Shown: positions 15,351-32,566 of the stretch, one piece after another
Position numbering within the stretch: the stretch's first letter is position 1
How the letters are laid out: each line of letters opens with the position of its first letter
From: Fibrobacter sp.
Lineage (GTDB): Bacteria; Fibrobacterota; Fibrobacteria; Fibrobacterales; Fibrobacteraceae
Reading direction: 5' to 3'
DNA: 64,000 nucleotides
Assembly: GCA_024399015.1 (NCBI GenBank)
Contig: JAKSIC010000007.1
Span: 62,001 to 126,000 of the forward strand
Translations under genes and position numbers: made by a program
The notes under the pieces: generated by a model
Databases searched by the model: none
Seen by the model: only the letters and a program-made list of their open reading frames with translations
What the model was told of the DNA's origin: nothing

Positions 15351-15435
15351 CCCATTTGGATTTTATGTCGCCTGAACTGGGTGGCGTATAAGTTGAAGAA
15401 TTTAAAGTGTTCTATGATTGGAGAAACGTAGCAGT

Positions 15436-16953
15436 ATGACCCTAAAGAAACTGGTCTTAATTACGGCCGGGGCAATGCTTCTTACCGGAACCGCCATGGC
15501 CAAGAATATCAATGTGCCTGGTGATTACAGCAAGATTGCAGACGCTCTCGGTAACGCCGACGCCGGAGATACCATCTTCGTTAAGCGCGGTACTTATAAC
15601 GAAAACATCACCTTGATCATGGGTGTTGTACTTAAGGGCGAAGATCCGCTCACTACCATCATCGATGGTGGCCGTCGCGGTCCTACCGTCATGGGTACTT
15701 CTGGCGCCGAAATGTCTCACTTCACCGTGAGAAACGGTCTCGAAGGTATTCTTTGCGAAAACGCTGCTCCCTACATCCACCACACCTACGTGATGGACAA
15801 CCATGCAACTGGTATCGGCGCATTCATTTCTCTGCCTCACCTCCGCAACAACGTGGTGTACGGCAACCGCTGGTCCGGCATCCTCGCATGGGGTGCTAAG
15901 TCTCTCGACGCTTACATTGAACAGAACGTTGTTCTTCGCAACGGCTACTCTGGCCTTGCTTTGAAGGGACCGACCAACGTGGTCGCCCGTAACAACATCT
16001 TCATGGAAAACCACTACTACGGTGTGTTTGCTGACCCGGCTGCCGGTCAGACGAAGGTGGAATACAACAACATCTACAAGAACTATTACCCGTTCAACCA
16101 GTTCATCAAGGTTAACCGTACGAACGTTTCCTTGGATCCGAAGTTCATGAATGCTTCTCTTTCCAAGCCGAACTTCTACTGCCAGTCTACCTCTCCGATG
16201 CTCAAGCGCGGTAAGGGTAAGATGGACATCGGTTTGACTGCTACCGAACTGGTGAAGGAAGAAGAAGCTGTTGAAGAAACCCGTAATCCGGATACCGATG
16301 GCGATGGCCTTTGCGATCCTTGGGTTTCTGAAGAAGGCGTTGCAGACAAGTACGCATCCGTTTGCACTGGTCTCGACAACTGCCCGGAAGAAGCTGAAGA
16401 CTTCGATGGCTATCAGGACGACGATGGTTGCCCGGATGCCGATAACGACCGTGACGGTCTCTGCGATCCTTGGGTAGAAGCCAAGGGTATGCTCTCCAAT
16501 TTCGCTCACATCTGTAAGGGTGTTGACCTCTGCCCGGAACAGGCAGAAACCCAGAACGAATATAAGGACGACGATGGTTGCCCGGATGAAGTTCCGCAGC
16601 CGCCGAAGAAGCGCTTCGTTCTCGAAGGTGTGAACTTTGAATCTGGTAAGGCTACCATTACTCCGGACTCCTACATCTCTCTTATGAAGGTGGTGGACAT
16701 CATGGAAACCTTTACCGATGCTACCTTCCAGATTGTCGGCCATACCGACAACGTTGGTAACAAGGACAAGAATAAGCAGCTTTCCGCTGACCGCGCTGCC
16801 GCAGTGAAGAACTTCCTCGTCGAAAAGGGTATCGACGAAAGCCGAATTGTCACTGACGGTATGGGTGATTCTCAGCCGGTTGCTTCTAACAAAACCCCTG
16901 AAGGTCGTGCTCAGAACCGTCGTATCGAGTTCATCCGCACGGATATGAAGTAA
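15436..16953 (+). CDS. OmpA-family protein with beta-helix and calcium-repeat segments
   Basis: A 505-residue exported protein. Order: signal peptide (LTGTAMA), a right-handed beta-helix of the pectate-lyase/NosD type (about 25-240, with VPGDYSKIADAL and repeated N-rich turns), two thrombospondin type-3-like repeats (DTDGDGLCDPW, DNDRDGLCDPW, DDDGCPD; about 275-385), and a C-terminal OmpA domain (VGHTDNVGNKDKNKQLSADR) with the Asp and Arg that bind peptidoglycan. It can therefore reach from the cell wall outward, with a role like Pal but on a larger scaffold. The ATG at 15436 is chosen for the signal peptide; GGAG lies 13 bases away and a TTG at 15418 is an alternative. First gene of the 15.4-26.3 kb cluster. 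Confidence 0.85.
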   Translation: MTLKKLVLITAGAMLLTGTAMAKNINVPGDYSKIADALGNADAGDTIFVKRGTYNENITLIMGVVLKGEDPLTTIIDGGRRGPTVMGTSGAEMSHFTVRNGLEGILCENAAPYIHHTYVMDNHATGIGAFISLPHLRNNVVYGNRWSGILAWGAKSLDAYIEQNVVLRNGYSGLALKGPTNVVARNNIFMENHYYGVFADPAAGQTKVEYNNIYKNYYPFNQFIKVNRTNVSLDPKFMNASLSKPNFYCQSTSPMLKRGKGKMDIGLTATELVKEEEAVEETRNPDTDGDGLCDPWVSEEGVADKYASVCTGLDNCPEEAEDFDGYQDDDGCPDADNDRDGLCDPWVEAKGMLSNFAHICKGVDLCPEQAETQNEYKDDDGCPDEVPQPPKKRFVLEGVNFESGKATITPDSYISLMKVVDIMETFTDATFQIVGHTDNVGNKDKNKQLSADRAAAVKNFLVEKGIDESRIVTDGMGDSQPVASNKTPEGRAQNRRIEFIRTDMK

Positions 16954-16964
16954 AGGAGTAGGTG

Positions 16965-19214
16965 ATGCGTTCTAATTTTATTAAAACCGCAGTTCTCGGA
17001 CTCTCCGTCGCTAGCACTTCCTTGTTTGCTGATGCAACTTATTCTCCCCATAAGTATCAGCAGAATGACTGGTTTGCAGAATTTGGTGGCAACACCGCTA
17101 TGTACGTCAACCCGGCAGGCATCGCTGAAACCGAACAGCTCGAAGTCAGCGCTGCATTCTTCAGCTCCATTAGTGGTGAAGCTAGCCAGGAATACGTCAG
17201 CGTAACTTATCCTTGGGATTACAAGCACACTTTGGGCGTGTCTCTCTTCGAAAACGGCGCATCCATTGATGGTGGCAAGTCCTACGGCGAATACTCTATC
17301 TTGGTTGGCTATGCTTACAACCTGATGCAGTTCGTCTCCCTGGGTGTTGACCTCTCCATTCTTTACATCAACCAGTTCGATGAAACCACTCAGCTGACCT
17401 TCGGTGCAGACCTCGGTGTTACCGTCAATGCGCTCTCTTCTTCCAAGTACGGCTACCTCTTGATCGGCCTTGCTTTGCAGAACGTGGCTCAGCCGGGTAT
17501 CAGCACTGCTGATGCAGATGGCTTTACCTTTGTTGTTCCGGGTTTCTTCGGTAGTGGTAGCAGCGATGCTTACAACATCCCGAGTAACCTCAACCTGTCC
17601 TTCTTCTACCGCGGCCTCAACCGCACTCTCGAAGCTAAGGCAGAAATTTCCCTCATCGATATCTTCCATGCTGAAGAAGAAGGTGGTAGCGGCGTGAATC
17701 CGGAATTCAGCCTTACCTTGACCTACTTCCTCTCCCCGCACCTTGGTGTTCGTCTCCGCTTCACAAAGGAAGGCTACCCGGTTGCTGGTGCTACAGTGAA
17801 CGTGAAGGATGTCAGCATCTTCCGTTACCTCGCTCTTGACTTGGAAATGTCTCATGACGACCTCTATGCCAAGAAGAACCGTGGTTTCATCTGGGCTGTG
17901 AAGATTACTTCTCGCTTCGGTGACACTCGTGAAGAAAAGATTGGTGAAGAACGTTATCGTCGCTTGAAGATCGAACCTGAAAACGACTACCGTGCTGCAA
18001 TGCGTCTCTACTTGAACCGTCAGTTCCTCGAAGCAGCTTATGCTTTCGGTAAGGTCCAGACCAAGTACCCTGCATTCCACCTTGTCGACCAGGCTGCTTT
18101 CTATAAGGCAAAGTCCTTCGAAAACCTCCGTATGCATAAGGCTGCAAAGGCCGTGTACGAAGATGCTATCAAGCGCTATCCGCAGAGTGACCAGCGTGCT
18201 AAGTACCACTTCCAGTTGATGAACATCGACTATAAGGAAGGCAAGTACACTGAAGCTATGTCCAAGTACCAGAACATTGCTCAGAAGTTCGGCGAAAGCG
18301 ACGTTAAGGCTGACGCTGACTACGTTGCCGGTCAGATCAAGTTTGAACAGGGCCTCTACCAGGAAGCTGTCGACCTGCTCGCAGCAATTCTCCCGGGTAA
18401 CGCCAACTACTTCTACGCTCGCTATACCATGGGTATTGCTTACAGCCGCCTTGGTAAGTGGGACGAAGCTGAAAACTGCTTCCGCGATATTACCGAACAG
18501 CCGGTTTCCAACCAGTCCGAACGTGACTTGCAGGATGCCGCTAAGGTTAAGCTCGGCCATATCTTCTTCTCTGGTGAAAAGGCTGACATCAGTGCTGCAG
18601 CTCAGATGTACGCACAGGTTCAGGCTGGCTCCCCGGTTTATGACGAAGCTATGCTCGGTATTGCATGGTCCTTCCTTAAGGTTAACAAGCCGGACGAAGC
18701 TATGAAGCCGGCTAAGTGGATCATCAGCAACCTTCCGGAATCCTTCCTGGTTTCTGAAGCTTACCTGGTTGTTGGTTACTGCCACTTCATGAAGAAGGAT
18801 TACAACGGCGCTGTTAAGGCTCTTGAACAGGCTGAAAAGCGCACCGAACAGCCGGTTGTCTCTGTTGCTGCTCGCGACAGTGCTCGTCAGGCCTACGATG
18901 CAATGCAGGATGAATTCGATTCTGTCCAGACCAAGGCTTTGGATCTCGCTCGTCAGCTCCCGACTCCTCGTGTGCAGAGCAAGCGCGAAGCTTTGAAGCC
19001 GTCCTTCGACAAGGCTAACGAAGCAATCGAAAATTACGCTGCCTTCAACCTTAAGGCAATTCAGAGTGACCGCTTTGAATCCAACCGTAAGCGTATTCTC
19101 GATGACGCAGGCTTTACCTTGGCAACCGTTAAGACCAAGATGGGTCAGGGCGCTGGCAGTTCTGAAGCCGCTTCCGAACTCGATGCTTTGGATGACGACT
19201 TAGATCTGGAATAA
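16965..19214 (+). CDS. PorV-like outer-membrane barrel fused to TPR repeats
   Basis: A 749-residue protein. After a signal peptide (ending SLFADA), residues to about 300 form an outer-membrane barrel with the PorV/UPF0164-type start (NTAMYVNPAGIAETEQLEVS). From about 330 to 640 it becomes TPR-like helices (for example AFGKVQTKYPAFHLVDQAAF), and ends in an acidic coil. A barrel joined to a long periplasmic TPR arm suits a scaffold linking the outer membrane to inner-membrane parts. AAAGGAG precedes the ATG by five bases, 11 bases after the OmpA-like gene. Fusion partners of this kind are unusual. Confidence 0.78.
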   Translation: MRSNFIKTAVLGLSVASTSLFADATYSPHKYQQNDWFAEFGGNTAMYVNPAGIAETEQLEVSAAFFSSISGEASQEYVSVTYPWDYKHTLGVSLFENGASIDGGKSYGEYSILVGYAYNLMQFVSLGVDLSILYINQFDETTQLTFGADLGVTVNALSSSKYGYLLIGLALQNVAQPGISTADADGFTFVVPGFFGSGSSDAYNIPSNLNLSFFYRGLNRTLEAKAEISLIDIFHAEEEGGSGVNPEFSLTLTYFLSPHLGVRLRFTKEGYPVAGATVNVKDVSIFRYLALDLEMSHDDLYAKKNRGFIWAVKITSRFGDTREEKIGEERYRRLKIEPENDYRAAMRLYLNRQFLEAAYAFGKVQTKYPAFHLVDQAAFYKAKSFENLRMHKAAKAVYEDAIKRYPQSDQRAKYHFQLMNIDYKEGKYTEAMSKYQNIAQKFGESDVKADADYVAGQIKFEQGLYQEAVDLLAAILPGNANYFYARYTMGIAYSRLGKWDEAENCFRDITEQPVSNQSERDLQDAAKVKLGHIFFSGEKADISAAAQMYAQVQAGSPVYDEAMLGIAWSFLKVNKPDEAMKPAKWIISNLPESFLVSEAYLVVGYCHFMKKDYNGAVKALEQAEKRTEQPVVSVAARDSARQAYDAMQDEFDSVQTKALDLARQLPTPRVQSKREALKPSFDKANEAIENYAAFNLKAIQSDRFESNRKRILDDAGFTLATVKTKMGQGAGSSEAASELDALDDDLDLE

Positions 19215-19294: not shown

Positions 19295-22200
19295 ATGAAA
19301 AAATTAATGCTTGTTGGTGCAATCGTTTGCTCGCTGATTGGCAATTCCTTTGCAGCGTCCGACCCTTGTAAAGACAAAGTAGCCGAAGCCAAGAAGTTGG
19401 CTGCAAAATGTAAGGCTATGCCTAAGGGCCCCGAAAAGACCCAGTGCGCTGGCTCCTATAAGGTTTTGAAGAACCAGGCCGAACAGGCTTGCCGTTCCGG
19501 TGGTCTTGACGAAGATGGTATGCGTCAGGCTATCGCCCAGTGGGAAAAGCAGGTGAACAACTGTAAGGGTAAGCAGAACGCACGTTGCGCTTCCGCTCTC
19601 CAGCAGCTCGGTCACTATCAGTTCCAGTTGGAAGAAAAGCAGTTCTTGGACAAGAACGCCCAGTACGAAGAAGATGTTGCATGGTGCGCAGACCGCGATA
19701 ACAAGCCGGCAAAGTGCGCTAACATCGATCAGCTCCCGAAGGCTGACCATAAGAAGTCTCTTGGCTACTTCCTCGAATACATTGATAAGTATCCGAAGGA
19801 ATCCAAGACCCCGACCGTTATTTACCAGGCTGCTGCTGTGCAGGAAGCTTCCGGTGAAGACGAAAAGGCTTTCAAGCTTCGTGATCGCCTCGTCAAGAAC
19901 TTCCCGGACAACGGTCTTGTCCCGAAGGCTTGGCTCCGTATTGCTGAATACCACTTCATGAACCGCAAGTTCCGCGACGCTATCAACGCCTATAAGAAGG
20001 TGACTGGCTTCGAAAGCTTGACCGGTAAGGAAGCTGCCTTGGCAATGTACCACTTGGCAGAATCCTACTATAACATTGCAGAATACGAAACCGCTGCAAT
20101 TAAGTACTACGAATATATCATTGGCGCAGACAAGGGTAAATACCCTGCTGACTTGCGCGCAGAAGCTATGGACTTCATGGCTGCATCCTTCTCTGACTTG
20201 GAAGGTGGTGGTGTCCAGGAAGCAGAATCTTTCTTGAAGGATAAGAAGGTTCCGTTCAAGGATTCCGTCTACTACCGTATCGGTATGAAGAACAAGGACC
20301 ATGACCGTAACGAAGAAGCTGTCCAGTCCTTCAAGCGTTTGATGAGTATCAACCCGGACTACATCGATGCTCCGTTGGCTGATATCGCTATGATCGAAAT
20401 CTTGATCGTCCAGCAGAAGTTCGAAGATGCTCAGGCTCATCGTTACACTGTTGTGAAGCGTTATGACCGTAACTCCTCCTGGTACAAGAAGAACCAGAAG
20501 TATCCGGAATCTGTGAAGAACGCAGAAACTGCAATCCGTGGCGCTATGCTCGACATTCCGCAGTACCACCACGCTCGCGCAGCTAAGCTCACCAAGGAAG
20601 GTGACTTGGAAGCCGGTAAGAAGCAGTATGCAGAAGCTATCAAGGCTTACGAAAAGTTCTTGGAACGTTACAAGAAGGAACCGACCTGGGACGAATACAA
20701 GGTTCACATCAACCTCGCTCTCGTCTATCAGGAAATGGGCCAGTATGCTAACGCTGCCAAGATGTTCAACTGGATCGTTGACACCGATACTACCCGTTAT
20801 GGCCGTCGCCCGATGGGCTCCGACGCTCTCCTGAAGAAGGAAGAAGCTGCTTATAACGCTGTGCTTGCTATGGACCAGTCTCGCGAAAACGCAAAGAAGA
20901 ACAAGGCTGGCGACGACAATGTTAAGGCTTACTCTCTCCCGGAAACCAAGGCCTACTTCGAACAGGTTAAGAAGTACATGGCTAAGTACGGTCAGAACAA
21001 GGAAGCTGCAGAACTTGCATACAACGCTGCTATCGTTCACTACGATGCAAAGCAGTTCAAGGTTGCTGTTGGCGTGCTCCGCGACTTGAAGCAGAAGTTC
21101 CCCAACCATCAGTACATCTTGCTCATCAGCCGTATGCTCGCTCAGTCCCTCTTGGAATCTAGCCAGCTCGATGAAGCTCTTACTGAATTTAGATGGCTCT
21201 ACAAACAGTATCATGATGTCAAGGCTACCAGAAATGACTCCATGGCTGCTGAAATCGAAAAGGCTATTGCTTACGTTCTCTTCCAGCAGGCTGAACAGTC
21301 TGTTAAGAACGGCCAGAACGAAAAGGGTGCTGGCGCTTACTTGGAACTCGTGAAGCTCTATCCGAAGATCGACATTGCTGACAAGGCTGTGTTCGAAGCT
21401 GCAGTTGCTTACGAAAATGCAAAGCAGTTCGTGAAGGCTGCTGAAACCTTCATGATGTTGCCGAAGCAGTACGCTGCATCTCCGCTCACCATCAAGGGTA
21501 TCCTCCGCGCTGCATCCGACTACAAGAAGGAAGCAGAAGCTAACAAGAATAATAAGAAGGTGTTCGAACAGCGTAACCGCGAAGCTGCACAGACCTTCTT
21601 GTTCATCACCAACAACTTCCCGCAGGACTCCATGGCCTTCCAGGCTATCGGTTTCGCTGCTCAGGTCTACGACTCCATCCCGGATAAGAAGACCGCTGCA
21701 ACCACTTACGAAATTGCTTACAAGCGTTACCCGAAGAACGAAAAGACTCCGTCCTTCCTTTATAGCGCATGCTTGAGCTATGACGAAGCTAAGATGGTTG
21801 ACGAAGCTATCCGTTGTAACAAGGACCTCGTTCGTGACTATCCGAAGAGCACCTACGCTCTCGACGCAGCATTCTCCATCCCGATGGCTTATGCAAACGG
21901 CAAGAAGTGGGACCTCGCTGCTAAGGAATATCACAACTTCATCAAGAGCTACAACGAAGACAAGGAAAAGCTGATTGCTGCCTACATCGGTGCTGCTCGT
22001 GCTTACATGGAACTTAAGGATGAAGACAAGGCTATCGCCGACTACGACGCAACCTTGAAGAACTACGATAAGTTCGGTCTTCAGATTAAGAATGCTGACC
22101 CGGCTGTTCCGGCTGAAGCTGCTTACTACCTCGGTGAACGTGAATACAACAAGATGACCCCGATCGTGATCAAGGGTAAGGACAAGGACAAGGCTAAGAT

Positions 22201-23107
22201 CATCAAGCAGTTGGTCGAAATCCTTCAGAAGGCTATGGGCCACTACTCCAAGTCTGCAACCTACGCATCTGAAAAGTGGACCTTCCGCGCTACCAACCGT
22301 ATGGGTATGCTCTTCGTTACCATGGCTGCTAAGATCCGTGAACAGGAACTTAACGGTAAGAAGGAAGACGAACGCTTCGCAGAACGTATCGGTATCGTCC
22401 AGCAGCTCCCGAGCTACTACGAACAGGCTCGTCCGATCTTCCAGAAGAACATCGACCTTGCTCGTGACCAGGGCTTCTACAATAAGGACGTGGTCGAAGC
22501 TGAAGAAGGCTATATCGAAATGTACTACCAGGGTTGCGCAGTGTTCGTCGAAGTTGCTGACGCATTCGCTAACTCTCCGCTTCCGGACTCCGCTGCCATC
22601 GTAAAGGAATACGTCGAATACGAAGGCGCTGTTAAGGAAGACGCTATCGAAATGGCTCACGAAGACCTCGAAGCTTATCGTGAAGAATTGAACACTCGTT
22701 CTGAAGGTGCTAAGGAACTGGCTAAGCCGCAGTGCGCAACCGGTATCAAGGCATCCGCTCACTACGGTATCGATAACCAGTGGACTGCAAAGCTCTTCGA
22801 ATTGCTCAAGACTCTCGACGAAAACGACGAAACCTTGAACACCAAGATCGAAAAGTTCGACCCGTCTACCTTGTTCTCCGACCCGGCATACTTCAAGACT
22901 AAGGCTCGTATCGAACAGATCTCCAAGTCTGAAGTGATGACTCCGGAAGAACAGATCGCTACCTACCGCGATATCATTAAGGAAGGCAAGGCCGAAAACG
23001 AAAAGTTGAAGGCTGAACTCGCTGACCTTAAGAAGCAGATGGCTCCGGCTGATGCTGGTGTCGACGCTGGCATGGGTGCTGCAGACAACGCAGCAGGCAT
23101 GAACTAG
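19295..23107 (+). CDS. Giant exported TPR protein (1270 residues)
   Basis: A signal peptide (MKKLMLVGAIVCSLIGNSFA) is followed by a cysteine-containing N-terminal domain (about 25-150) and then TPR-like helical repeats to about residue 1040, a further helical region, and a short coiled coil and Ala/Gly tail. TPR arrays bind other proteins; placed before TolQ/TolR homologues, this is probably a periplasmic scaffold of the same machine. After codon 4 the gene contains no TTA, CTA or TCA codon, a strong bias suggesting high expression. I know no characterised close homologue; TPR proteins of the myxobacterial Glt machinery are the nearest analogy. Confidence 0.8.
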   Translation: MKKLMLVGAIVCSLIGNSFAASDPCKDKVAEAKKLAAKCKAMPKGPEKTQCAGSYKVLKNQAEQACRSGGLDEDGMRQAIAQWEKQVNNCKGKQNARCASALQQLGHYQFQLEEKQFLDKNAQYEEDVAWCADRDNKPAKCANIDQLPKADHKKSLGYFLEYIDKYPKESKTPTVIYQAAAVQEASGEDEKAFKLRDRLVKNFPDNGLVPKAWLRIAEYHFMNRKFRDAINAYKKVTGFESLTGKEAALAMYHLAESYYNIAEYETAAIKYYEYIIGADKGKYPADLRAEAMDFMAASFSDLEGGGVQEAESFLKDKKVPFKDSVYYRIGMKNKDHDRNEEAVQSFKRLMSINPDYIDAPLADIAMIEILIVQQKFEDAQAHRYTVVKRYDRNSSWYKKNQKYPESVKNAETAIRGAMLDIPQYHHARAAKLTKEGDLEAGKKQYAEAIKAYEKFLERYKKEPTWDEYKVHINLALVYQEMGQYANAAKMFNWIVDTDTTRYGRRPMGSDALLKKEEAAYNAVLAMDQSRENAKKNKAGDDNVKAYSLPETKAYFEQVKKYMAKYGQNKEAAELAYNAAIVHYDAKQFKVAVGVLRDLKQKFPNHQYILLISRMLAQSLLESSQLDEALTEFRWLYKQYHDVKATRNDSMAAEIEKAIAYVLFQQAEQSVKNGQNEKGAGAYLELVKLYPKIDIADKAVFEAAVAYENAKQFVKAAETFMMLPKQYAASPLTIKGILRAASDYKKEAEANKNNKKVFEQRNREAAQTFLFITNNFPQDSMAFQAIGFAAQVYDSIPDKKTAATTYEIAYKRYPKNEKTPSFLYSACLSYDEAKMVDEAIRCNKDLVRDYPKSTYALDAAFSIPMAYANGKKWDLAAKEYHNFIKSYNEDKEKLIAAYIGAARAYMELKDEDKAIADYDATLKNYDKFGLQIKNADPAVPAEAAYYLGEREYNKMTPIVIKGKDKDKAKIIKQLVEILQKAMGHYSKSATYASEKWTFRATNRMGMLFVTMAAKIREQELNGKKEDERFAERIGIVQQLPSYYEQARPIFQKNIDLARDQGFYNKDVVEAEEGYIEMYYQGCAVFVEVADAFANSPLPDSAAIVKEYVEYEGAVKEDAIEMAHEDLEAYREELNTRSEGAKELAKPQCATGIKASAHYGIDNQWTAKLFELLKTLDENDETLNTKIEKFDPSTLFSDPAYFKTKARIEQISKSEVMTPEEQIATYRDIIKEGKAENEKLKAELADLKKQMAPADAGVDAGMGAADNAAGMN

Positions 23108-23954: not shown

Positions 23955-24851
23955 ATGTCAAGACAACTTAAGAAACCAGCAAAGCCTGAAGAACCGGACC
24001 TGTTGCCGGCAATGGGCTTGTTCACAATCCTGATTCCTATGCTGTTGTCTATGGCTGCCTTCTCCAAGCTGGCTATCGTTGAAGTCAATCTGCCGGAACG
24101 TTCCATGATGCAGATGGACAACGATACCCCTCCGGAACCGGACCAGCAGGCTCTGAACCTCTCCCTCGCTATCACCGGTGATTACCTGGTGATCGGTGCT
24201 CGTGGCGGTTTCCAGCCCAATGTCTACTTCAAGGAAATGTGGACATTCCGTTGCAAGTCCGACGCTAAGTTGGTTACTTACTCTCCGGACGATGTGAAGG
24301 CTGCTGTTGATGGCGGTCATGGTCCCAAGTGCAAAGATGGCTCCGAAATGGATAAAGAAAAGTATCTTTATGAAATCGAAACCATCGAACTTTGGGCAAT
24401 CAACAAAGAATCTGAAGAAGATCCGGGTCGCGTTCTTTGGGCAGTTTACACCAACGGTGGTACTGCTGAAGAAGCAATTGCTGACTCTGCATACGTAGAC
24501 GGCAACAACAACTTCCTCATGGCTCCTGGTGAAGGTGCTATGGGCCTGAACCCGCCTTCTGCTCTCAAGAAGCCCAGCGCAGGTGCTGACTTGGCTACCC
24601 TTACTCCGAACTCTGCTCGTAAGCTGAAGCCGGATGTAGCTGCCAAGAACCTCATTCACCCGCTCTCCGCTTATGACCTGATTGCTAAGGACCTCATCCA
24701 GATCCACACTCAGTTCATCGACCTTGATGACGTTGATAACATCATCATCGTTGCAAACGACGATACTCAGTTCGACAAGATCATTCAACTTATGGACCGT
24801 GCTAAAGAAGCCGGTTTCAGCAAGATCAATCTTGCTAAGCTGGGAGGTTAA
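23955..24851 (+). CDS. TolR/ExbD-like protein lacking the channel aspartate, with large insert
   Basis: A 298-residue single-pass protein. The N-terminal membrane segment is followed by VEVNLPE as in ExbD, and the C-terminus (DNIIIVANDDTQFDKIIQLM then AKEAGFSKINLA) matches the ExbD/TolR periplasmic fold. About 140 residues with no recognised domain are inserted between them. The Asp that carries protons in TolR and ExbD is absent: residue 21 is Gly (LLPAMGLFTIL), whereas the next gene has Asp at residue 21. Three bases separate the two genes. It may be a structural half of a mixed pair. GGAG precedes the ATG. Confidence 0.8.
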   Translation: MSRQLKKPAKPEEPDLLPAMGLFTILIPMLLSMAAFSKLAIVEVNLPERSMMQMDNDTPPEPDQQALNLSLAITGDYLVIGARGGFQPNVYFKEMWTFRCKSDAKLVTYSPDDVKAAVDGGHGPKCKDGSEMDKEKYLYEIETIELWAINKESEEDPGRVLWAVYTNGGTAEEAIADSAYVDGNNNFLMAPGEGAMGLNPPSALKKPSAGADLATLTPNSARKLKPDVAAKNLIHPLSAYDLIAKDLIQIHTQFIDLDDVDNIIIVANDDTQFDKIIQLMDRAKEAGFSKINLAKLGG

Positions 24852-24853
24852 TC

Positions 24854-25348
24854 ATGGCTAGAAGAAGTCGTAAATACGGTGAAGACGTCCCGTTCTCGAT
24901 TACGTCCATGATGGACATGATGACCATTATTCTGGTGTTCATGATTAAGAACATGGACGCAGAAGGTCAGCTCTTGACTCAGGCTGAAAACTTGATCCTG
25001 CCGGTTTCCACCTCTCGTGTGCAGCCGAAGGAAGTTTCCCTGGTGGTTATCGTTGATAACAATTACGTGCTCGTTGATAATGCTAAGGTTATCCCGACCG
25101 AAGATGTCCTGAAGCAGGAAGATCTCCTTGTGACCAAGGTTGACTCTGTGCTGAAGGAACGTCGCGCAGTGGAACAGGAACATGCCCTTAAGGCAGGTCT
25201 CCCCGCTGACGAAGCCGGCCACATCGTTGTGCAGATCGACAAGAACATCCCTTACGATGCAATGTATAAGGTAATGGCTACTTGTGGCTTTGCCGGTTAC
25301 ACCAATATTGCATTCGCCGTGATGGAAAAGAACGGCGGGGAGGACTAA
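24854..25348 (+). CDS. TolR/ExbD-like protein with the channel aspartate
   Basis: A 164-residue single-pass protein with a short basic N-terminus, a membrane segment carrying Asp21 in SMMDMMTIILVFM, and a periplasmic ExbD fold (IVVQIDKNIPYDAMYKVMA then GFAGYTNIAF). This Asp corresponds to TolR D23 / ExbD D25, needed for proton-driven motion in the family. Its ribosome binding site (GGGAGG) is in the end of the previous gene, so the two TolR/ExbD-like proteins are probably made together. Three bases separate its stop from the TonB-like gene. Confidence 0.88.
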   Translation: MARRSRKYGEDVPFSITSMMDMMTIILVFMIKNMDAEGQLLTQAENLILPVSTSRVQPKEVSLVVIVDNNYVLVDNAKVIPTEDVLKQEDLLVTKVDSVLKERRAVEQEHALKAGLPADEAGHIVVQIDKNIPYDAMYKVMATCGFAGYTNIAFAVMEKNGGED

Positions 25349-25351
25349 TAT

Positions 25352-26296
25352 ATGGCAAAGACTAAAAAGCAAGCTCCTGTCGTAGACCCGTTAGTAGCAT
25401 CTCTCATGCCGGAATCCGACAAGAAGATGGGTGCTATCGCCGGTATCTCTCTCGTAGTAGCTTTGGCAATCTGCCTTTGGGCTTCCATGTACGAACAGGT
25501 TGTGGACGAAGTCGTGTTCGATGACTCCGCAGCTGCTGATCTGACTACTTCTATGTCCATCGAAGAAAAGAAGGAAGAGAAGAAGGAAGAAAAGAAGAAG
25601 GAAGAACCCAAGAAGCCTCGTAAGAAGGCTGGTGGTGGTGGCAAGCCGCGTGGTAAGGGTCAGCCCAACGCTCCCCAGACTCGTGGTGTGCTTAAGCTCC
25701 TCACTGCTCAGACCAAGAACGCAAGTGCCGGTGCATATGACCTCATGAAGAACCAGAAGTTCTCTAAGGACATTGACAAGGTGCTTAAGGACGTGGCTGG
25801 CCTCCAGACTACAGGTAAGACTGTTCTCGGTGGTCGTCGCGGTAAGGCTGATGGTGGCTTTAACGAAGGTTACGCTGAAGGCGGTTCCGGTGGTATCGGT
25901 GACGGTCTGGCTGGCCTCCTTGGCGGTGGTGGCGGTGGTATCGCTACTAAGGCTAAGGGCTCCATCAAGACCCCGTCTGAACGTGATATCGATATGGGCG
26001 CTGGTGGTGGTTCCCGTTCTGCTGCAGACATCATGAAGGTTGTCCGTCAGCGTACTCCGGGTCTCCGTCACATCTATAACAAGTTCCTGAAGAAGAAGCC
26101 GGGCTTCCAGGGTAAGGTTACCTTGAAGTTCACAATCGCTCCGGGTGGCGAAGTTATCAGCATCTCCATTGCTTCCTCTACCACTGGTTTCGGCGAATTT
26201 GATGGTGAAATCAAGACCGCTGTTAGCCGCTGGAAGTTCAGCAAGGTTAAGTCCGGTAACACTACTGTGACGATTCCGTTCACCTTCTCTGAATAA
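25352..26296 (+). CDS. TonB-like protein with AgmX/PglI-type C-terminal domain
   Basis: A 314-residue protein with a membrane segment at about 30-47, then a Lys/Glu-rich rod (EEKKEEKKEEKKKEEPKK), a basic and a Gly-rich linker, and a C-terminal domain (about 220-314) with VVRQRTPGLRHIYNKFLKKK, TIAPGGEVISISI and AVSRWKF. This end matches the TonB-like domain found in AgmX and PglI of Myxococcus gliding machinery. The rod suits crossing the periplasm and the C-terminal domain suits binding an outer-membrane or periplasmic partner. The Gly-rich stretch (about 175-215) is unusual for TonB. GGGGAGGA precedes the ATG. A terminator ends the cluster. Confidence 0.85.
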   Translation: MAKTKKQAPVVDPLVASLMPESDKKMGAIAGISLVVALAICLWASMYEQVVDEVVFDDSAAADLTTSMSIEEKKEEKKEEKKKEEPKKPRKKAGGGGKPRGKGQPNAPQTRGVLKLLTAQTKNASAGAYDLMKNQKFSKDIDKVLKDVAGLQTTGKTVLGGRRGKADGGFNEGYAEGGSGGIGDGLAGLLGGGGGGIATKAKGSIKTPSERDIDMGAGGGSRSAADIMKVVRQRTPGLRHIYNKFLKKKPGFQGKVTLKFTIAPGGEVISISIASSTTGFGEFDGEIKTAVSRWKFSKVKSGNTTVTIPFTFSE

Positions 26297-26454: not shown

Positions 26455-27786
26455 ATGAATTTAAGAACAGCTGCTGCAGTTGGCGCCGCTATTGGTGTCT
26501 TTGGCGTTGGTTCCGCATTCGCTACTTTTGCTCGTGTTGAATCTATGGGTAAGAACACAACTTACATCATGGACGACGTTAGCATTTTTGATAATCCGGC
26601 AAACGCTAGCCTGTATTCCAACTATTTGATCGGTGGTTTCGGTTCCTATACCGATGCTAACCCGGCTGTTGGTACCAACCAGGATCCTATGCATCCGACC
26701 TTCGGTGGCATCTTCTCCGTTTCTTTCGGTGATGATAACAACCCGGATCCGCGTTTTACCATCGGTGGCTTGCTTGGCCGCACTTCCGAACTTGCTTCCT
26801 ACCTGCCTAAGTACGTTCAGATTGACGACAAGAACAAGGTTGCTGTTCCTGCTAGCGTTACTAACTTTGACGGCTTCTTGGGCGGCACCTTTACTAGTGG
26901 CGACGCTTGGGGCTTGCACCTCTACATTGCTCACCAGGATGGTGGTGAATATGATGAAAAGAGCGGTGCTTATCAGGTTAACAGCGATGCATTCGCTTCT
27001 GTCGTTGAACTTGATGGTGGCTTGAACTTCCAGGTCGGTAGCGGCACTTCCTATGAACTGTCTATCGGCATTGCCCGTATTCAGTACGGTCCGGAACACC
27101 ACAGCTTCTTTGACGATGGCAACTTCTCTTTCTTGGCAAAGGCTCGTGCCTTCTTCACTCTCGACGCTATCGATGGTGAATTGATTCCGGCTGCTTCTGC
27201 AAACTTCATCAACGCTCCGGGTCTTGACGACAAGCATGCCCAGGCTGGCGTTGGTATCAACGTTGCTATGGATCGCGGCTTCTTCTGGATGGGCGTTGAC
27301 TTCGTCTGGAATCAGCTCAAGTCTCATGACTACTTCTATGAAACTGCAATGAATGGCTGGGTCTATGATGCTCGCTTCGATGACGACGATGATGAAGATC
27401 TCGTTTGGGACAAGCGCTCCGACATCGGCGGCAAGATCAGCTTCGGTATCGAACGTAACATTTGGTGGGATTGGTTCGTGATCCGCGTTGGCGGCCAGAA
27501 GTCCATTCTCTATACCAGCTGCGAAGTTAACGAAGGTAGCCGTGGCCAGAGCAAGGGCGTATATCCGGACAACCGTTACGGCAAGTGCAAGGCTGATGGT
27601 AACTTCTTCTCCACCAATCCGCTTGCTGATGGTACCAATAAGGACCACGTTGGCTTCGGCTTCGGTATCAACATCGAAGAAAAGCTGAAGATCGACGTTA
27701 CTGTTGCTGAAGATATTCTGTTCCGTAACCCGTTCCAGGGTGAAGGTCGTTTCTTCTCCAGACTCGACGCTACCTATAGCTTCTAG
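26455..27786 (+). CDS. Outer-membrane beta-barrel protein
   Basis: A 443-residue exported protein. A signal peptide ends at SAFA. The mature part has many alternating strands, Gly/aromatic-rich segments, an acidic loop (FDDDDDEDLVW near residue 320), and ends in RLDATYSF, a C-terminal Phe typical of barrels folded by the Bam machinery. Its start (ESMGKNTTYIMDDVSIFDNP then ANAS) resembles PorV/FadL-like proteins that begin with a short plug. AGGAG precedes the ATG. It has its own promoter and terminator, so it is separate from the TPR/TolQ cluster upstream. The substrate is unknown. Confidence 0.75.
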   Translation: MNLRTAAAVGAAIGVFGVGSAFATFARVESMGKNTTYIMDDVSIFDNPANASLYSNYLIGGFGSYTDANPAVGTNQDPMHPTFGGIFSVSFGDDNNPDPRFTIGGLLGRTSELASYLPKYVQIDDKNKVAVPASVTNFDGFLGGTFTSGDAWGLHLYIAHQDGGEYDEKSGAYQVNSDAFASVVELDGGLNFQVGSGTSYELSIGIARIQYGPEHHSFFDDGNFSFLAKARAFFTLDAIDGELIPAASANFINAPGLDDKHAQAGVGINVAMDRGFFWMGVDFVWNQLKSHDYFYETAMNGWVYDARFDDDDDEDLVWDKRSDIGGKISFGIERNIWWDWFVIRVGGQKSILYTSCEVNEGSRGQSKGVYPDNRYGKCKADGNFFSTNPLADGTNKDHVGFGFGINIEEKLKIDVTVAEDILFRNPFQGEGRFFSRLDATYSF

Positions 27787-27882: not shown

Positions 27883-28251
27883 ATGAAGAAAATTTTCTTG
27901 TTTGCATTTTTGCTCGCCTTGATTGGTTGCTCCGAGCCCACGGAGCGTATTGAGAACAAATTAACGCCATACCTTCAGGAAGACCTGAAGTTTATGGTGG
28001 CGGAAACCATGCGTACTTCCAACAACGACAGGGAAGCCATCCTTGACACTCCCTACTATCGCGTGAAGGACTTTAGATTGTTCGAAGGCGCAGAAGCTAG
28101 AATTTATGCTGCCTATGCAGAGGTCGATTTCTTTATCTTCAAGAACATCGGTATGCATGAGAAACGCAAGTACCGTTACGATGTTCATACTCGTAAATGG
28201 GACCGTTATTTGAAGACGTTAAAATTCGGTAAAGATACGATTCCCGAGTAA
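27883..28251 (+). CDS. Small lipoprotein
   Basis: A 122-residue lipoprotein with a short signal peptide and lipobox LIGC at residues 13-16. The mature domain is mixed-charge with several aromatic residues (YYRVKDFRLFEGAEARIYAA) and no cysteine other than the lipidated one. No family is recognised. It lies just upstream of mreB in the same direction, with 66 bases between them, so it could be part of the rod-shape transcript, but no function follows from that. Confidence 0.65.
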   Translation: MKKIFLFAFLLALIGCSEPTERIENKLTPYLQEDLKFMVAETMRTSNNDREAILDTPYYRVKDFRLFEGAEARIYAAYAEVDFFIFKNIGMHEKRKYRYDVHTRKWDRYLKTLKFGKDTIPE

Positions 28252-28317: not shown

Positions 28318-29340
28318 TTGTTTGGTCTTTTTTCTTGTGACATCGGTATTGATCTTGGCACTGCAAACACTTTGGTCCACGTTGCAGGTCAGGGTATTGT
28401 AATTAACGAACCTACGGTTATCGCTGTGGACAGCAAGAATAACCGTGTTTCCGCCATCGGTTTCGAAGCTAAGAAGATGCTTGGCCGTACCCCGGGCGAA
28501 AGCCGCGCTGTGCGTCCTATGCGTGATGGCGTGATCGCAGACTTTGAACTGGTGGAAAACCTCCTCCAGACCTTCATCAAGCGTGTTCAGAAGTATCCTT
28601 TGTGGATGGTTAGACCCCGCGTCGTCGTGGGTGTTCCCTCCGGCATTACCGAAGTGGAAAAGCGCGCTGTGATCGATGCTGCTAAGCAGGCTGGTGCAAA
28701 GGAAGTCCACCTGGTTCACGAACCTATGGCCGCTGCAATCGGCATGGGCATTCCTGTGGAAGACCCTGTGGGTAACATGATTGTGGACATCGGCGGTGGT
28801 ACCTCCGATATCGCAGTGATCGCCTTGAACGGTTCCGTATGTAACGCTTCCGTACGCGTTGGCGGTGATGAAATGGACGAAGCTATTGTCCGCTACCTCC
28901 GCACCATGTACAACCTCTGCGTTGGCGAAAGCACCGCAGAACAGATCAAGATGCAGATCGGTTCCGCAGTACCTCTGGAAGAAGAACTTTCCATGGAAGT
29001 GAAGGGCCACGACTTTATCGCCGGTATGCCCCGCACCATGACTATCAACAGTGCTGAAATCCGTGAAGCCTTGAATGAACCTGTAACCGCTATCGTTGAA
29101 GCTGTCAAGCAGGCTTTGAGCATAACTCCGCCGGAACTTTCTGCTGATATTTACGACAAGGGTATCATCATGACTGGTGGTGGTTCTCAGCTCCGTGGTT
29201 TCGACGAACGTATCCGTCAGGAAACCGGTCTTTCCGTGAACGTTATTGACGAAGCCTTGATCAGCGTCTGTAAGGGTGCCGCACGCATTCTCGAAGACCT
29301 GGACAAGTATCGCCCGGTTTTGATCGCTTCCTCTACTTAA
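28318..29340 (+). CDS. mreB: Rod shape-determining protein MreB
   Basis: A 340-residue actin-fold ATPase that guides cell-wall synthesis along the side wall from the inner face of the membrane. Phosphate-binding motifs are visible: DIGIDLGTANT at the N-terminus, VDIGGGTSDIAV in the middle and TGGGSQLRG near the end. The start is a TTG, supported by AAAAGGACGAG a few bases before it and by the normal MreB N-terminus. It heads the order mreB-mreC-mreD-mrdA-rodA. Confidence 0.96.
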   Translation: MFGLFSCDIGIDLGTANTLVHVAGQGIVINEPTVIAVDSKNNRVSAIGFEAKKMLGRTPGESRAVRPMRDGVIADFELVENLLQTFIKRVQKYPLWMVRPRVVVGVPSGITEVEKRAVIDAAKQAGAKEVHLVHEPMAAAIGMGIPVEDPVGNMIVDIGGGTSDIAVIALNGSVCNASVRVGGDEMDEAIVRYLRTMYNLCVGESTAEQIKMQIGSAVPLEEELSMEVKGHDFIAGMPRTMTINSAEIREALNEPVTAIVEAVKQALSITPPELSADIYDKGIIMTGGGSQLRGFDERIRQETGLSVNVIDEALISVCKGAARILEDLDKYRPVLIASST

Positions 29341-29357
29341 CCCAAATTTGAAGTTCG

Positions 29358-30185
29358 ATGTTTAGGGCTTTTCGCTTTATAGTCGACTTGTTTACTCAAA
29401 GGCATGGCGTTGTCGCTTTTGCCTTTTTTCTGCTATTGGGACTCTTGATGCGTCAGGCTCCTGGAACAATACGTCAGAGCATTGTTTCCACGGCCCTGGG
29501 CACTGTTTTCTATCCGGCACAGCTCGTCGCCTCTTCGTTGAATTCGTTCCGCGAAGTGGCTCTTGAAAATGAACAATTGAAGGAAGAAAACGCCCGCCTC
29601 CGTCAGGAAACTTATCATGCCCGCGAGGGCTTGCAGGAATTGGCTAGACTGCATACGCTGGTCCGTTTTGATGACAAGTGGGACTATCCTATTGTGACTT
29701 CCCGCGTGGTGGGACACAACCCCGGTCGTTTCCTTACGACGCTTGTAATCAACCGCGGTACACGTCACGGAGTAAAGGAGAACATGCCTGTGTTCTCCAT
29801 GAATGGTCTTGTTGGCAAGATTACCAAGGCTGCCATGACTCATTCCCGTGTGCAACTTCTTGTTGATCCTAACTTGAAACTTTCCGTGATGGAACGTAGA
29901 ACACGCGTGGTGGGCTTCCTTGAATCCAAGGATGGTCATATGCTGACCGCCATGGTGCCGGCTCATGCTGGTATTCAGGAAGGCGATACCTTGGTCACTT
30001 CTGGTCTTGGCGGCATTTTCCCCAAGGGCATTCCCGTGGGAACTGTGAATAAGGTTCGTAAGGCCGACCTTGACGTGATGCGCTTGATGGATGTGGCTCC
30101 GTTCCAGGAGTTCGCTATTCTGGAAGAAGTCTTTGTGATGGAAAAAGAACCTGACTGGGTCATTCAGGAGTTACTAGATGAGTAG
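29358..30185 (+). CDS. mreC: Rod shape-determining protein MreC
   Basis: A 275-residue bitopic protein. One membrane segment (about 14-32) is followed by a coiled coil (ALENEQLKEENARLRQE) and the two beta-barrel-like MreC domains (VVGHNPGRFLTTLVINRGT; GLGGIFPKGIPVGTV). MreC links MreB to the wall enzymes in the periplasm. The gap to mreB is 17 bases and the end overlaps mreD by 8 bases. Confidence 0.94.
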   Translation: MFRAFRFIVDLFTQRHGVVAFAFFLLLGLLMRQAPGTIRQSIVSTALGTVFYPAQLVASSLNSFREVALENEQLKEENARLRQETYHAREGLQELARLHTLVRFDDKWDYPIVTSRVVGHNPGRFLTTLVINRGTRHGVKENMPVFSMNGLVGKITKAAMTHSRVQLLVDPNLKLSVMERRTRVVGFLESKDGHMLTAMVPAHAGIQEGDTLVTSGLGGIFPKGIPVGTVNKVRKADLDVMRLMDVAPFQEFAILEEVFVMEKEPDWVIQELLDE

Positions 30186-30666
30186 TTTGAAATGGCTTAA
30201 GGTTTTGATTTTGTTTGTGGTTACTTTCGGCCTTCAGGTGACTGTTGCCGAGTGGCTGCAGATTTTTGGCGTCGGCCCTGACTTCGTCATCATTTTCATC
30301 GTTGCAGTTGCTATCCGCCGTGGCCCTGCTGCAGGTTGCTTCTGGGGCTTTACGGCTGGCTTTGCACAGGATGTCTATGCGCCCATTGAATGGTTCGGTG
30401 CAAGCACTATTTCCATGACGATTCTTGGCTTTGTGGTGGGCCAGCTTGAAGAGCGCTTCTTGACTTTGAACATGCCTGCAAAGGTTGGTGTTCTTGGTCT
30501 TGGTTTCTTTGTTTGCGATATGTTCTATTTCGGCATCACAGGTCTTTCCAAGGATGTGGTGACCAACATGTTCTTGACCCAGACTTTACCGGAATGCATC
30601 TACACTATGTTCGTTGGTGCTATTGCGTTCTATCTGGATTTTGGCAAGAAGAAGAAACATGCTTAA
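30178..30666 (+). CDS. mreD: Rod shape-determining protein MreD
   Basis: A 162-residue membrane protein with about five hydrophobic segments, the usual MreD size and place. The pattern GPDFVIIFIVAVAIRRGPAA with GFTAGFAQDV fits the family. It overlaps both mreC and mrdA by 8 bases, which suggests coupled translation. Confidence 0.9.
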   Translation: MSSLKWLKVLILFVVTFGLQVTVAEWLQIFGVGPDFVIIFIVAVAIRRGPAAGCFWGFTAGFAQDVYAPIEWFGASTISMTILGFVVGQLEERFLTLNMPAKVGVLGLGFFVCDMFYFGITGLSKDVVTNMFLTQTLPECIYTMFVGAIAFYLDFGKKKKHA

Positions 30667-32566
30667 CTTCTCGTCGGAAAACGAAATTCAGCAAAGCAAA
30701 AACTTGCACGTCCTGATTTTCTTGGCGGGCGTAGTGTTGCTGTTCTGTATTTTGCTGGTCCGCCTTTTCTCTTTGCAGTATACCCATTACGACGAGAATC
30801 TTCAGCGCTCTGACAATAACCGTATCCGTAAGGTTGTGCTTGTTGCTGAACGCGGCTACATCTATGACCGCAATGGCGAAGTGCTGGTGCGTAATCGTCC
30901 GTCTTACCAGATTGCGTTGATGGCTTCTAATCTTCCGCGTAAGAAGGATCAGCGTGATTCCGTCTTTAGCAACTTGCTGAAGATTCGCGACAAGAGCGGT
31001 GCTCGTCTTTTTGATTCTCTTTCTGTGGATACGGCGTTCCAGCGTTCCCGCTGGATCAAGAACCGCCCCATCCGAATGCTTGAAGATGCGTCCCCGGAAC
31101 AGGTGGCCATTATCGAAGAGCATTCTGCGGACTTGCCAGGTGTTGTGACGTTGATTGAGTCTCGTCGCGACTATCCTTACGGAACTCTTGCTTCTCACGT
31201 GCTGGGTTATACTAGCGAAATTTCCGAAGAACAGTTGAAGCTTCCGGAGTTCGCCGATTATACCCAGGGTGACCGTGTTGGCCAAAAAGGTTTGGAACAG
31301 GGTTACGACAAGGAGTTCCGTGGAAAGAACGGCATGAAGCTTGTGGAAGTGAATGCATCTGGCCGTGAAGTGGGCCAGGTCTCTGGCGTTGAAGGTACTG
31401 AACCGGAGCCGGGCTTGCATCTTGTTTCTACCATCGATTTGGCTTTGCAGAAAGTTGCGGAAGAAGCTATTCCTGATAGTGCGAAGGGAGCCTTGGTCGC
31501 CCTTGATCCTAACACGGGTGAAATTCTTGCCATGGTCAGCTCTCCGCGATTGGACCCGAATATCTTTTCCTTGAAGCGTCGTGAACGAAACAAGGGCTGG
31601 GCTCAGGTCGCCCTTGACTCCATGCGTCCTTTGACTAATCGCGCAATCTCCGGAACTTATCCGCCGGCATCCATCTTCAAGCTTGTTACGTCTGGGGCAG
31701 GTCTTGAAAGCGGGATACTTTCGGAATACAAGTACTACCCGAAGGCTTGTACCGGCGGCTACCAGTATGGTTCCCGTTACCAGAAGTGCTGGGGTGTTCA
31801 CGGGAACTTGAACGTGGTGAATGCAATCCGCCTTTCCTGCGACGTGTTCTTCTATCAGGCTGGTCTCGATATTGATATGGCCCGCATCAATGAATTTGGT
31901 CGCAGATTCGGCCTGGGCGAAAAGCCTCTTGGCGTGGACATTCCTGGCGAAAAGGCTGGCTGGCTTCCTGACTCTGTTTCTTTCAATGCTCGTAACAAGC
32001 GATTGGGCTGGCGCTGGGCTCGTGGCCTGATCTTGAACTTGTCTATTGGCCAGGGGCAGATTGTAACTCCGCTTCAGCAGGCCGTTCTTGTGGGATCCCT
32101 GGCAACGAACAAGGGTGTCTATCGTCCTCACTTCATGAAAGAACTTCGTGACTCCAAGGGCAATGTGGTTCGTCGTTATGAACCGGAAATCATCCGCCCG
32201 GGTAACATGAAAAAGGAAACTCACCGTGTGCTGATGAACGCCATGGATTCCGTGGTGAACCATCCGGGTGGAACAGGTAAGCGTGGCGCAATTCCGGGAA
32301 TTCGTGTGGGTGCAAAGACTGGTTCCGGTGAATGGAAGAAGGGCGAGAAGACTCACGCATGGTATGCTGCCGTCGCTCCTCTGGACAAGCCTGAAATTGC
32401 CGTGGCTGTCATTATGGAAGCCGCAGGTGGTGGCGGTGCCGTTTCCGGCCCCATCGCCAAGAAAGTCATGATGGCATTCTTTGAAGCGAAGAAGGAATTG
32501 GAATTGGCAAAGGAGCAGGAGAATGCTCCTGAAGAAGCGACTGAAAGTGAGGAGGATGGACAATGA
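30659..32566 (+). CDS. mrdA: Penicillin-binding protein 2 (peptidoglycan transpeptidase)
   Basis: A 635-residue class B PBP acting in lateral wall synthesis. It has one N-terminal membrane segment (about 15-37), a pedestal domain, and a transpeptidase domain with the catalytic motifs SIFK, SCD and KTGS. The ATG at 30659 is chosen because the mature N-terminus is then of normal length; an upstream start at 30614 would overlap mreD by 53 bases. The C-terminus has an acidic Glu-rich tail. The stop overlaps the rodA start (ATGA). Confidence 0.95.
   Translation: MLNFSSENEIQQSKNLHVLIFLAGVVLLFCILLVRLFSLQYTHYDENLQRSDNNRIRKVVLVAERGYIYDRNGEVLVRNRPSYQIALMASNLPRKKDQRDSVFSNLLKIRDKSGARLFDSLSVDTAFQRSRWIKNRPIRMLEDASPEQVAIIEEHSADLPGVVTLIESRRDYPYGTLASHVLGYTSEISEEQLKLPEFADYTQGDRVGQKGLEQGYDKEFRGKNGMKLVEVNASGREVGQVSGVEGTEPEPGLHLVSTIDLALQKVAEEAIPDSAKGALVALDPNTGEILAMVSSPRLDPNIFSLKRRERNKGWAQVALDSMRPLTNRAISGTYPPASIFKLVTSGAGLESGILSEYKYYPKACTGGYQYGSRYQKCWGVHGNLNVVNAIRLSCDVFFYQAGLDIDMARINEFGRRFGLGEKPLGVDIPGEKAGWLPDSVSFNARNKRLGWRWARGLILNLSIGQGQIVTPLQQAVLVGSLATNKGVYRPHFMKELRDSKGNVVRRYEPEIIRPGNMKKETHRVLMNAMDSVVNHPGGTGKRGAIPGIRVGAKTGSGEWKKGEKTHAWYAAVAPLDKPEIAVAVIMEAAGGGGAVSGPIAKKVMMAFFEAKKELELAKEQENAPEEATESEEDGQ

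Follow-up and report, generated by a model that had tools for sequence, protein, structure and literature searches.

Among described envelope motors, the AglR-AglQ-AglS system of Myxococcus xanthus, with GltG, is the closest to the one analyzed here, as it likewise combines one TolQ-like protein with two different TolR-like proteins. A member of the Fibrobacteres has been placed in the AglRQS/GltCDEG core clade (Luciano 2011, PMC3169522). AglQ and AglS have both been described as Asp-bearing, and the literature leaves undecided whether they form a heterodimer or homodimers (PMC9389320). The D28N substitution in AglQ abolishes function in Myxococcus (PMC3858216). In published models of MotAB, ExbBD and TolQR, the two Asp residues exchange protonation states with a rotation of 36 degrees per proton, and the Asp is regarded as strictly indispensable (PMC12905483, PMC12215075). 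The TPH-vWA pairs found with TolQ-like pentamers are also predicted to place a hetero-pair of pore helices in the ring, with an Asp in each helix and vWA domains in the periplasm, unlike the pair from Fibrobacterota described here (PMC12204202).

The stretch of DNA that we analyzed, referred to as the window, comprises 64,000 nucleotides of a Fibrobacter sp. contig (JAKSIC010000007.1). It contains a compact operon on the forward strand in which a gene for a large TPR protein is followed by genes for an ExbB/TolQ-like protein, two ExbD/TolR-like proteins (ExbD' and ExbD), a TonB-like protein, a porin-like protein and a small lipoprotein-like protein (Table 1). Thus, as in AglRQS-Glt, one TolQ-like and two TolR-like genes share a single operon, and the ExbD', ExbD and TonB-like genes are separated by gaps of 2-3 bp. 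Downstream of the small lipoprotein-like gene are mreB, mreC, a short ORF and a gene for a PBP2-type transpeptidase. Gene order in the operon is kept across the 40 loci we fetched, as far as the contigs extend. The position directly 5' of mreB-mreC-PBP2 recurs in families f1, f2 and f4 and is absent from the Chitinispirillia-type loci examined. No TonB-dependent receptor was found among the neighboring genes examined. The TonB-like protein scores 80.4 bits against NF033768 (cut-off 40) and has an AgmX/PglI C-terminal domain, which together with the TPR proteins near the motor genes resembles the Agl-Glt system. Its score against the GltG equivalog model is 62 bits, where the cut-off is 650, indicating that it is not GltG itself.

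Table 1. Features of the motor operon and its surroundings, in window positions.
Feature	Position	Strand	Basis or remark
OmpA-domain / beta-helix protein, upstream of operon	15418..16953	+	
TPR protein, 750 aa, upstream of operon	16962..19214	+	
Large TPR protein, 1270 aa; first conserved gene of operon	19295..23107	+	
ExbB/TolQ-like channel subunit, 206 aa	23296..23916	+	Pfam MotA_ExbB 3.6e-21; aligned to E. coli ExbB
ExbD', Asp-less ExbD/TolR-like subunit, 298 aa, Gly21 at proton-site position	23955..24851	+	Pfam ExbD 6.7e-9; AF2; phylum-wide alignment
ExbD' predicted transmembrane helix	24003..24065	+	Gly21 codon ggc 24015-24017; no acidic residue inside
ExbD' beta-rich insertion, ~140 residues, in periplasmic ExbD fold	24207..24629 (approximate limits)	+	AF2 and alignment
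ExbD, Asp-bearing ExbD/TolR subunit, 164 aa	24854..25348	+	Pfam ExbD 6.6e-15; AF2; Asp21 codon gac 24914-24916
TonB/GltG-like transducer, AgmX/PglI C-terminal domain	25352..26296	+	NF033768 7.7e-23; GltG 3.2e-17, far below GltG model cut-off
Porin-like outer-membrane protein, conserved next gene	26455..27786	+	weak PopA-family match, below cut-off
Small protein, lipoprotein-like start (MKKIFLFAFLLALIGCS); last gene ahead of mreB	27883..28251	+	
mreB-mreC-PBP2 region directly after motor operon	28318-32566		

The original prediction held that the two ExbD/TolR-like proteins differ at residue 21. Indeed, the codons specify Gly for ExbD' and Asp for ExbD, within an ungapped register in which M20, T24 and I25 are common to both, and residue 21 of each protein aligns with Asp25 of E. 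coli ExbD. Both proteins pass the PF02472 cut-off of 25.4 bits (36.3 for ExbD' and 55.7 for ExbD), with the match in ExbD' confined to its C-terminal part, and the proton-binding Asp of this family is missing in ExbD' and present in ExbD. AF2 models predict a single N-terminal transmembrane helix (residues 17-37 in ExbD', whose model has a pLDDT of 78.9, and 16-36 in ExbD) and a periplasmic ExbD/TolR fold for each protein. The extra length of the first copy, originally put at about 140 residues, comes to 134 (298 versus 164 amino acids) and is modeled as an insertion, rich in beta structure, that separates the early strands from the first helix. This large insert marks the Fibrobacterota ortholog group, unlike the Agl system. 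The best relevant folds in the PDB are TolR (5by4) and ExbD (8vgc), at weak E-values of 1.5e-3 to 0.14; matches of the whole ExbD' model to actin/Hsp70-type folds had TM-scores near 0.2 and were judged meaningless.

From the former Asp site to position +13, the ExbD' helix contains no charged residue. A search for a substitute acid in the Asp-less helices gave none that is conserved; a Glu at +14, at the periplasmic end, occurs in just 44%. In other respects these helices still resemble those of ExbD: the Asp site holds a residue that is small or polar (Asn in 71% of distinct helices), and the flanking residues are of the ExbD type. Separately, some genomes of the Fibrobacter family encode the periplasmic domain of ExbD' without its transmembrane helix, in exported or lipoprotein-like form (L177:5308-6708, L184:2518-4032, L182:5430-6188, L183:5131-5904, L187:5142-5963 and L188:5506-6921). 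In two cases this domain is fused to the C-terminal region of TonB/AgmX, which hints, in the Rosetta-stone sense, that ExbD' cooperates with the TonB-like protein.

To define how widely the asymmetry is conserved, we compared 168 Fibrobacterota genomes (89 of them good), with relatives that include Fibrobacter, Chitinispirillaceae, Chitinivibrionales and Ca. Raymondbacteria; the loci of most deep branches come from MAGs. ExbD' was matched in 150 of the 168 genomes and in 83 of the 89 good ones. At the Asp site, 70 ExbD' orthologs have Gly (36), Asn (21), Ser (6), Ala (4) or Cys (3), while all 69 orthologs of the second gene have Asp. A wider count, taking in every ExbD copy of 22 genomes plus the paralogous loci, yielded 125 distinct adjacent pairs. 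In 122 of these the first member is non-acidic (N, G, S, A or C) and the second has Asp; the three Asp-Asp pairs are a canonical-type pair of family f11 (two distinct sequences) and the operon of genome G164. Asp is present in every distinct second member (117/117) and every distinct lone ExbD (63/63), and first copies are non-acidic in 112 of 116 distinct relatives. Recurring in 122 of the 125 distinct pairs, which come from many genomes, the asymmetry exceeds chance, and it is a phylum-wide feature of Fibrobacterota rather than a quirk of a single genome. Searches of plasmid sequences returned no relatives outside Fibrobacterota, and the genome contigs covered were those of Fibrobacterota.

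Gly itself is not the conserved state. Its conservation is limited to Fibrobacter and close genera, and Asn, with occasional Ser, Ala or Cys, is the commoner residue across the phylum, so that of the two residues whose conservation was to be checked, Asp21 of the second copy was upheld and Gly21 gave way to a conserved lack of acid. Syntenic first copies with Asp, which tell against the original prediction, occur in one of 14 families, that of G164 and G165. The syntenic operon of G164 (L194) has Asp in both copies and offers a natural two-site comparison. That of G165 (L196) has Asp in the first copy, and its contig ends ahead of the second. Solitary first copies of this two-Asp type adjoin TonB-like genes in L195 and L197. 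Some genomes of the Chitinispirillia and Raymondbacteria types (G004, G016, G023, G031, G036, G038 and G167) each contain several motor operons with paired ExbD genes, which is an unusually rich complement of envelope motors.

The variety of residues at the site (N, G, S, A, C) might be taken to mean that the first copy is decaying and the position merely relaxed. We regard this as very improbable, since the gene reads intact and is preserved across Fibrobacterota, with invariant residues outside the site, no other charged residue and no bulky one ever stands at the site itself, and F. succinogenes expresses both proteins. The simplest reading of the conserved asymmetry would be a mixed pair with one proton site, in which the Asn of most first copies is a natural D-to-N substitution in one of two subunits. 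Since the same substitution at this site kills AglQ (D28N), it must be argued that one Asp suffices. We consider it probable that the operon encodes a heterodimeric 5:1:1 motor that resembles AglRQS/Glt and has a single protonatable site, and we lean, a little less firmly, towards a phylum-wide family of one-proton-site rotary motors (ExbB5:ExbD'1:ExbD1, or ExbB4:ExbB-ExbD'1:ExbD1 in the fusion version described below).

The stoichiometry, location in the pore, proton use, step size and periplasmic division of labor of this motor are what we infer, as follows. The operon would encode an envelope motor that is driven by protons and belongs with ExbBD, TolQR and AglRQS; its ExbB pentamer would house one Asp-less (Gly/Asn) and one Asp21 ExbD-type helix. 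Protons would be taken up and released by the Asp helix only, and the Asp-less helix would fill the other place in the pore, as a neutral partner in a permanently 'protonated-like' state. The enlarged periplasmic domain of ExbD' may have a separate task, such as anchoring to the cell wall or gripping the GltG-like transducer. Such a motor would use five protons per turn instead of ten, moving either by 72-degree steps or by half-steps that are driven and passive in turn.

A second arrangement, which the sequence by itself permits, would have two kinds of pentamer, one holding an Asp homodimer and acting as motor, the other holding an Asp-less homodimer and being non-conducting, regulatory or a decoy. 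However, in most operons ExbB is a single gene, a homodimer of the Asp-less type would be left without any proton site, and the two copies have diversified jointly across about four paralogous systems; we therefore find this arrangement improbable, if less so than decay of the first copy.

Further evidence on the make-up of the ring comes from natural ExbB::ExbD' fusions. Proteins of about 430 residues (427-450) that join the two occur in 21 of the 168 genomes, spread over eight families (f3, f7 and f9-f14), with the match incomplete in two of the 21; the loci are L191, L265-L271 and those of 13 further genomes. A separate ExbB gene was found beside the fusion in 17 of the 21, and both ExbB versions keep the pore threonines. 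In the eight loci examined over their whole length, the fusion is followed by genes for an Asp-bearing ExbD and a TonB-like protein, and none of the eight fused first copies read at the site has Asp. A 607-residue open frame of G167 that resembled a triple fusion is really a 430-residue fusion followed by a separate ExbD. The C-terminus of ExbB and the N-terminus of ExbD are both cytoplasmic, and the topology of the fusion is thus permitted. If the pore accommodates two helices, no more than two subunits of the ring can be fusions, and if the other pore helix carries the needed Asp, exactly one subunit per ring would be a fusion. The fusions found beside a separate ExbB would fit best with a mixed ring and a mixed pair, which does not prove that the ExbD' helix lies in the pore.

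Indeed, the fusion is also compatible with an ExbD' helix outside the ring, and this counts against the one-site motor, as does the retention of two Asp in the syntenic operon of G164/G165. The main rival to that motor has an Asp-bearing ExbD homodimer within the ExbB pentamer (5:2) and ExbD' as an accessory anchor or adaptor outside it, where TonB and TolA also bind in their own systems. The large insert of ExbD' suggests a special periplasmic job. Additionally, the Ser/Thr-x3-His motor box of the TonB-like protein is missing in 63 of 64 ortholog-type and all eight fusion-type operons but kept in seven of 12 insert-free paralogs, so that another protein may have assumed a role beside the ring. 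Against this, the Asp-less helix is still ExbD-like, as expected if it packs against the pore threonines, and a separate ExbB beside the fusions would be needless if every ring subunit could carry an outside helix. On balance we consider an accessory ExbD' unlikely, and the one-site heterodimer remains the reading we prefer.

To our knowledge, every structurally known motor of the class has two like subunits, a further point against the one-site motor. The Fibrobacterota operons share the ExbB pore threonines, the ExbD fold and a TonB-like third protein with the 5:2 motors of E. coli, ExbBD-TonB and TolQR-TolA. Whereas those have two identical Asp-bearing ExbD subunits, here the pair is unequal with one Asp; in Agl, both TolR-like proteins are described as having it (PMC9389320). 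In the window ExbB, the equivalents of E. coli T148 and T181 are kept, and both threonines are retained in practically every ExbD pair system. E176 is replaced by Ile. A Glu at this position occurs in 54 of 81 lone-ExbD systems, in most two-Asp pairs and in one of about 130 Asp-less operons; the value of its loss as a diagnostic is weakened, as some lone-ExbD motors also lack it. Also unlike E. coli, the motor box is gone in the ortholog group, and the transmembrane helix of the window TonB-like protein has no Ser-x3-His. With few independent lineages behind them, the Glu176 and motor-box correlations would serve as leads, not tests.

ExbD trees, which were built without the trait column and rooted on E. 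coli ExbD, have long branches. Second copies formed one clade (99/95), as did the Asp-less first copies (95/85), whose sister is the two-Asp first copies of G164/G165. The Asp-less clade covers about four system types: the window ortholog, two groups of paralogs that have no insert, and the fusion group. A nested reversal to Asp inside the class Fibrobacteria orthologs was rejected by the AU test (p 0.0076), whereas a grouping of G164/G165 with all orthologs was not (p 0.29). In a tree of the TPR protein, G164/G165 join class Fibrobacteria on a long branch. The simplest account would be an ancestral two-Asp heteropair that lost one Asp once, anciently, with the Asp-less state then probably retained in about four related system types. 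Given the p of 0.29, the E. coli rooting and the long branches, one loss is the account that fits best, though it is not proven.

Orthologs of ExbD' and ExbD, FSU_2401 and FSU_2402, have been detected as proteins in F. succinogenes S85, where FSU_2400 to FSU_2403 are made together and are more abundant on cellulose (PMC4619616, PMC6851124). The masses predicted for the window proteins agree with those of S85. Induction on cellulose has hitherto been read as cellodextrin import (PMC6851124), and motility has never been demonstrated in F. succinogenes (PMC3079729). The similarity to the Agl-Glt core, the place ahead of mreBCD in class Fibrobacteria and the lack of a TonB-dependent receptor among the neighbors seen suggest force transmission through the envelope, as in surface adhesion, polymer movement or wall-linked work, over simple nutrient import. 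FSU_2400-2403 may thus be an Agl-like envelope motor rather than a cellodextrin importer.

We found no earlier report of an Asp-less ExbD partner or of a natural ExbB-ExbD fusion in the open-licence PMC literature, and both appear, tentatively, to be novel. The natural fusions provide a means of fixing the order and stoichiometry of the subunits. A one-site motor predicts half the protons per turn and a different step geometry, and a motor that has lost one of its two sites, with the loss persisting throughout a phylum, would directly test the models of two-Asp exchange. If the reading is true, alternating protonation of two Asp residues would be dispensable for this class of motor, and the axle would be heterodimeric and functionally polarized.
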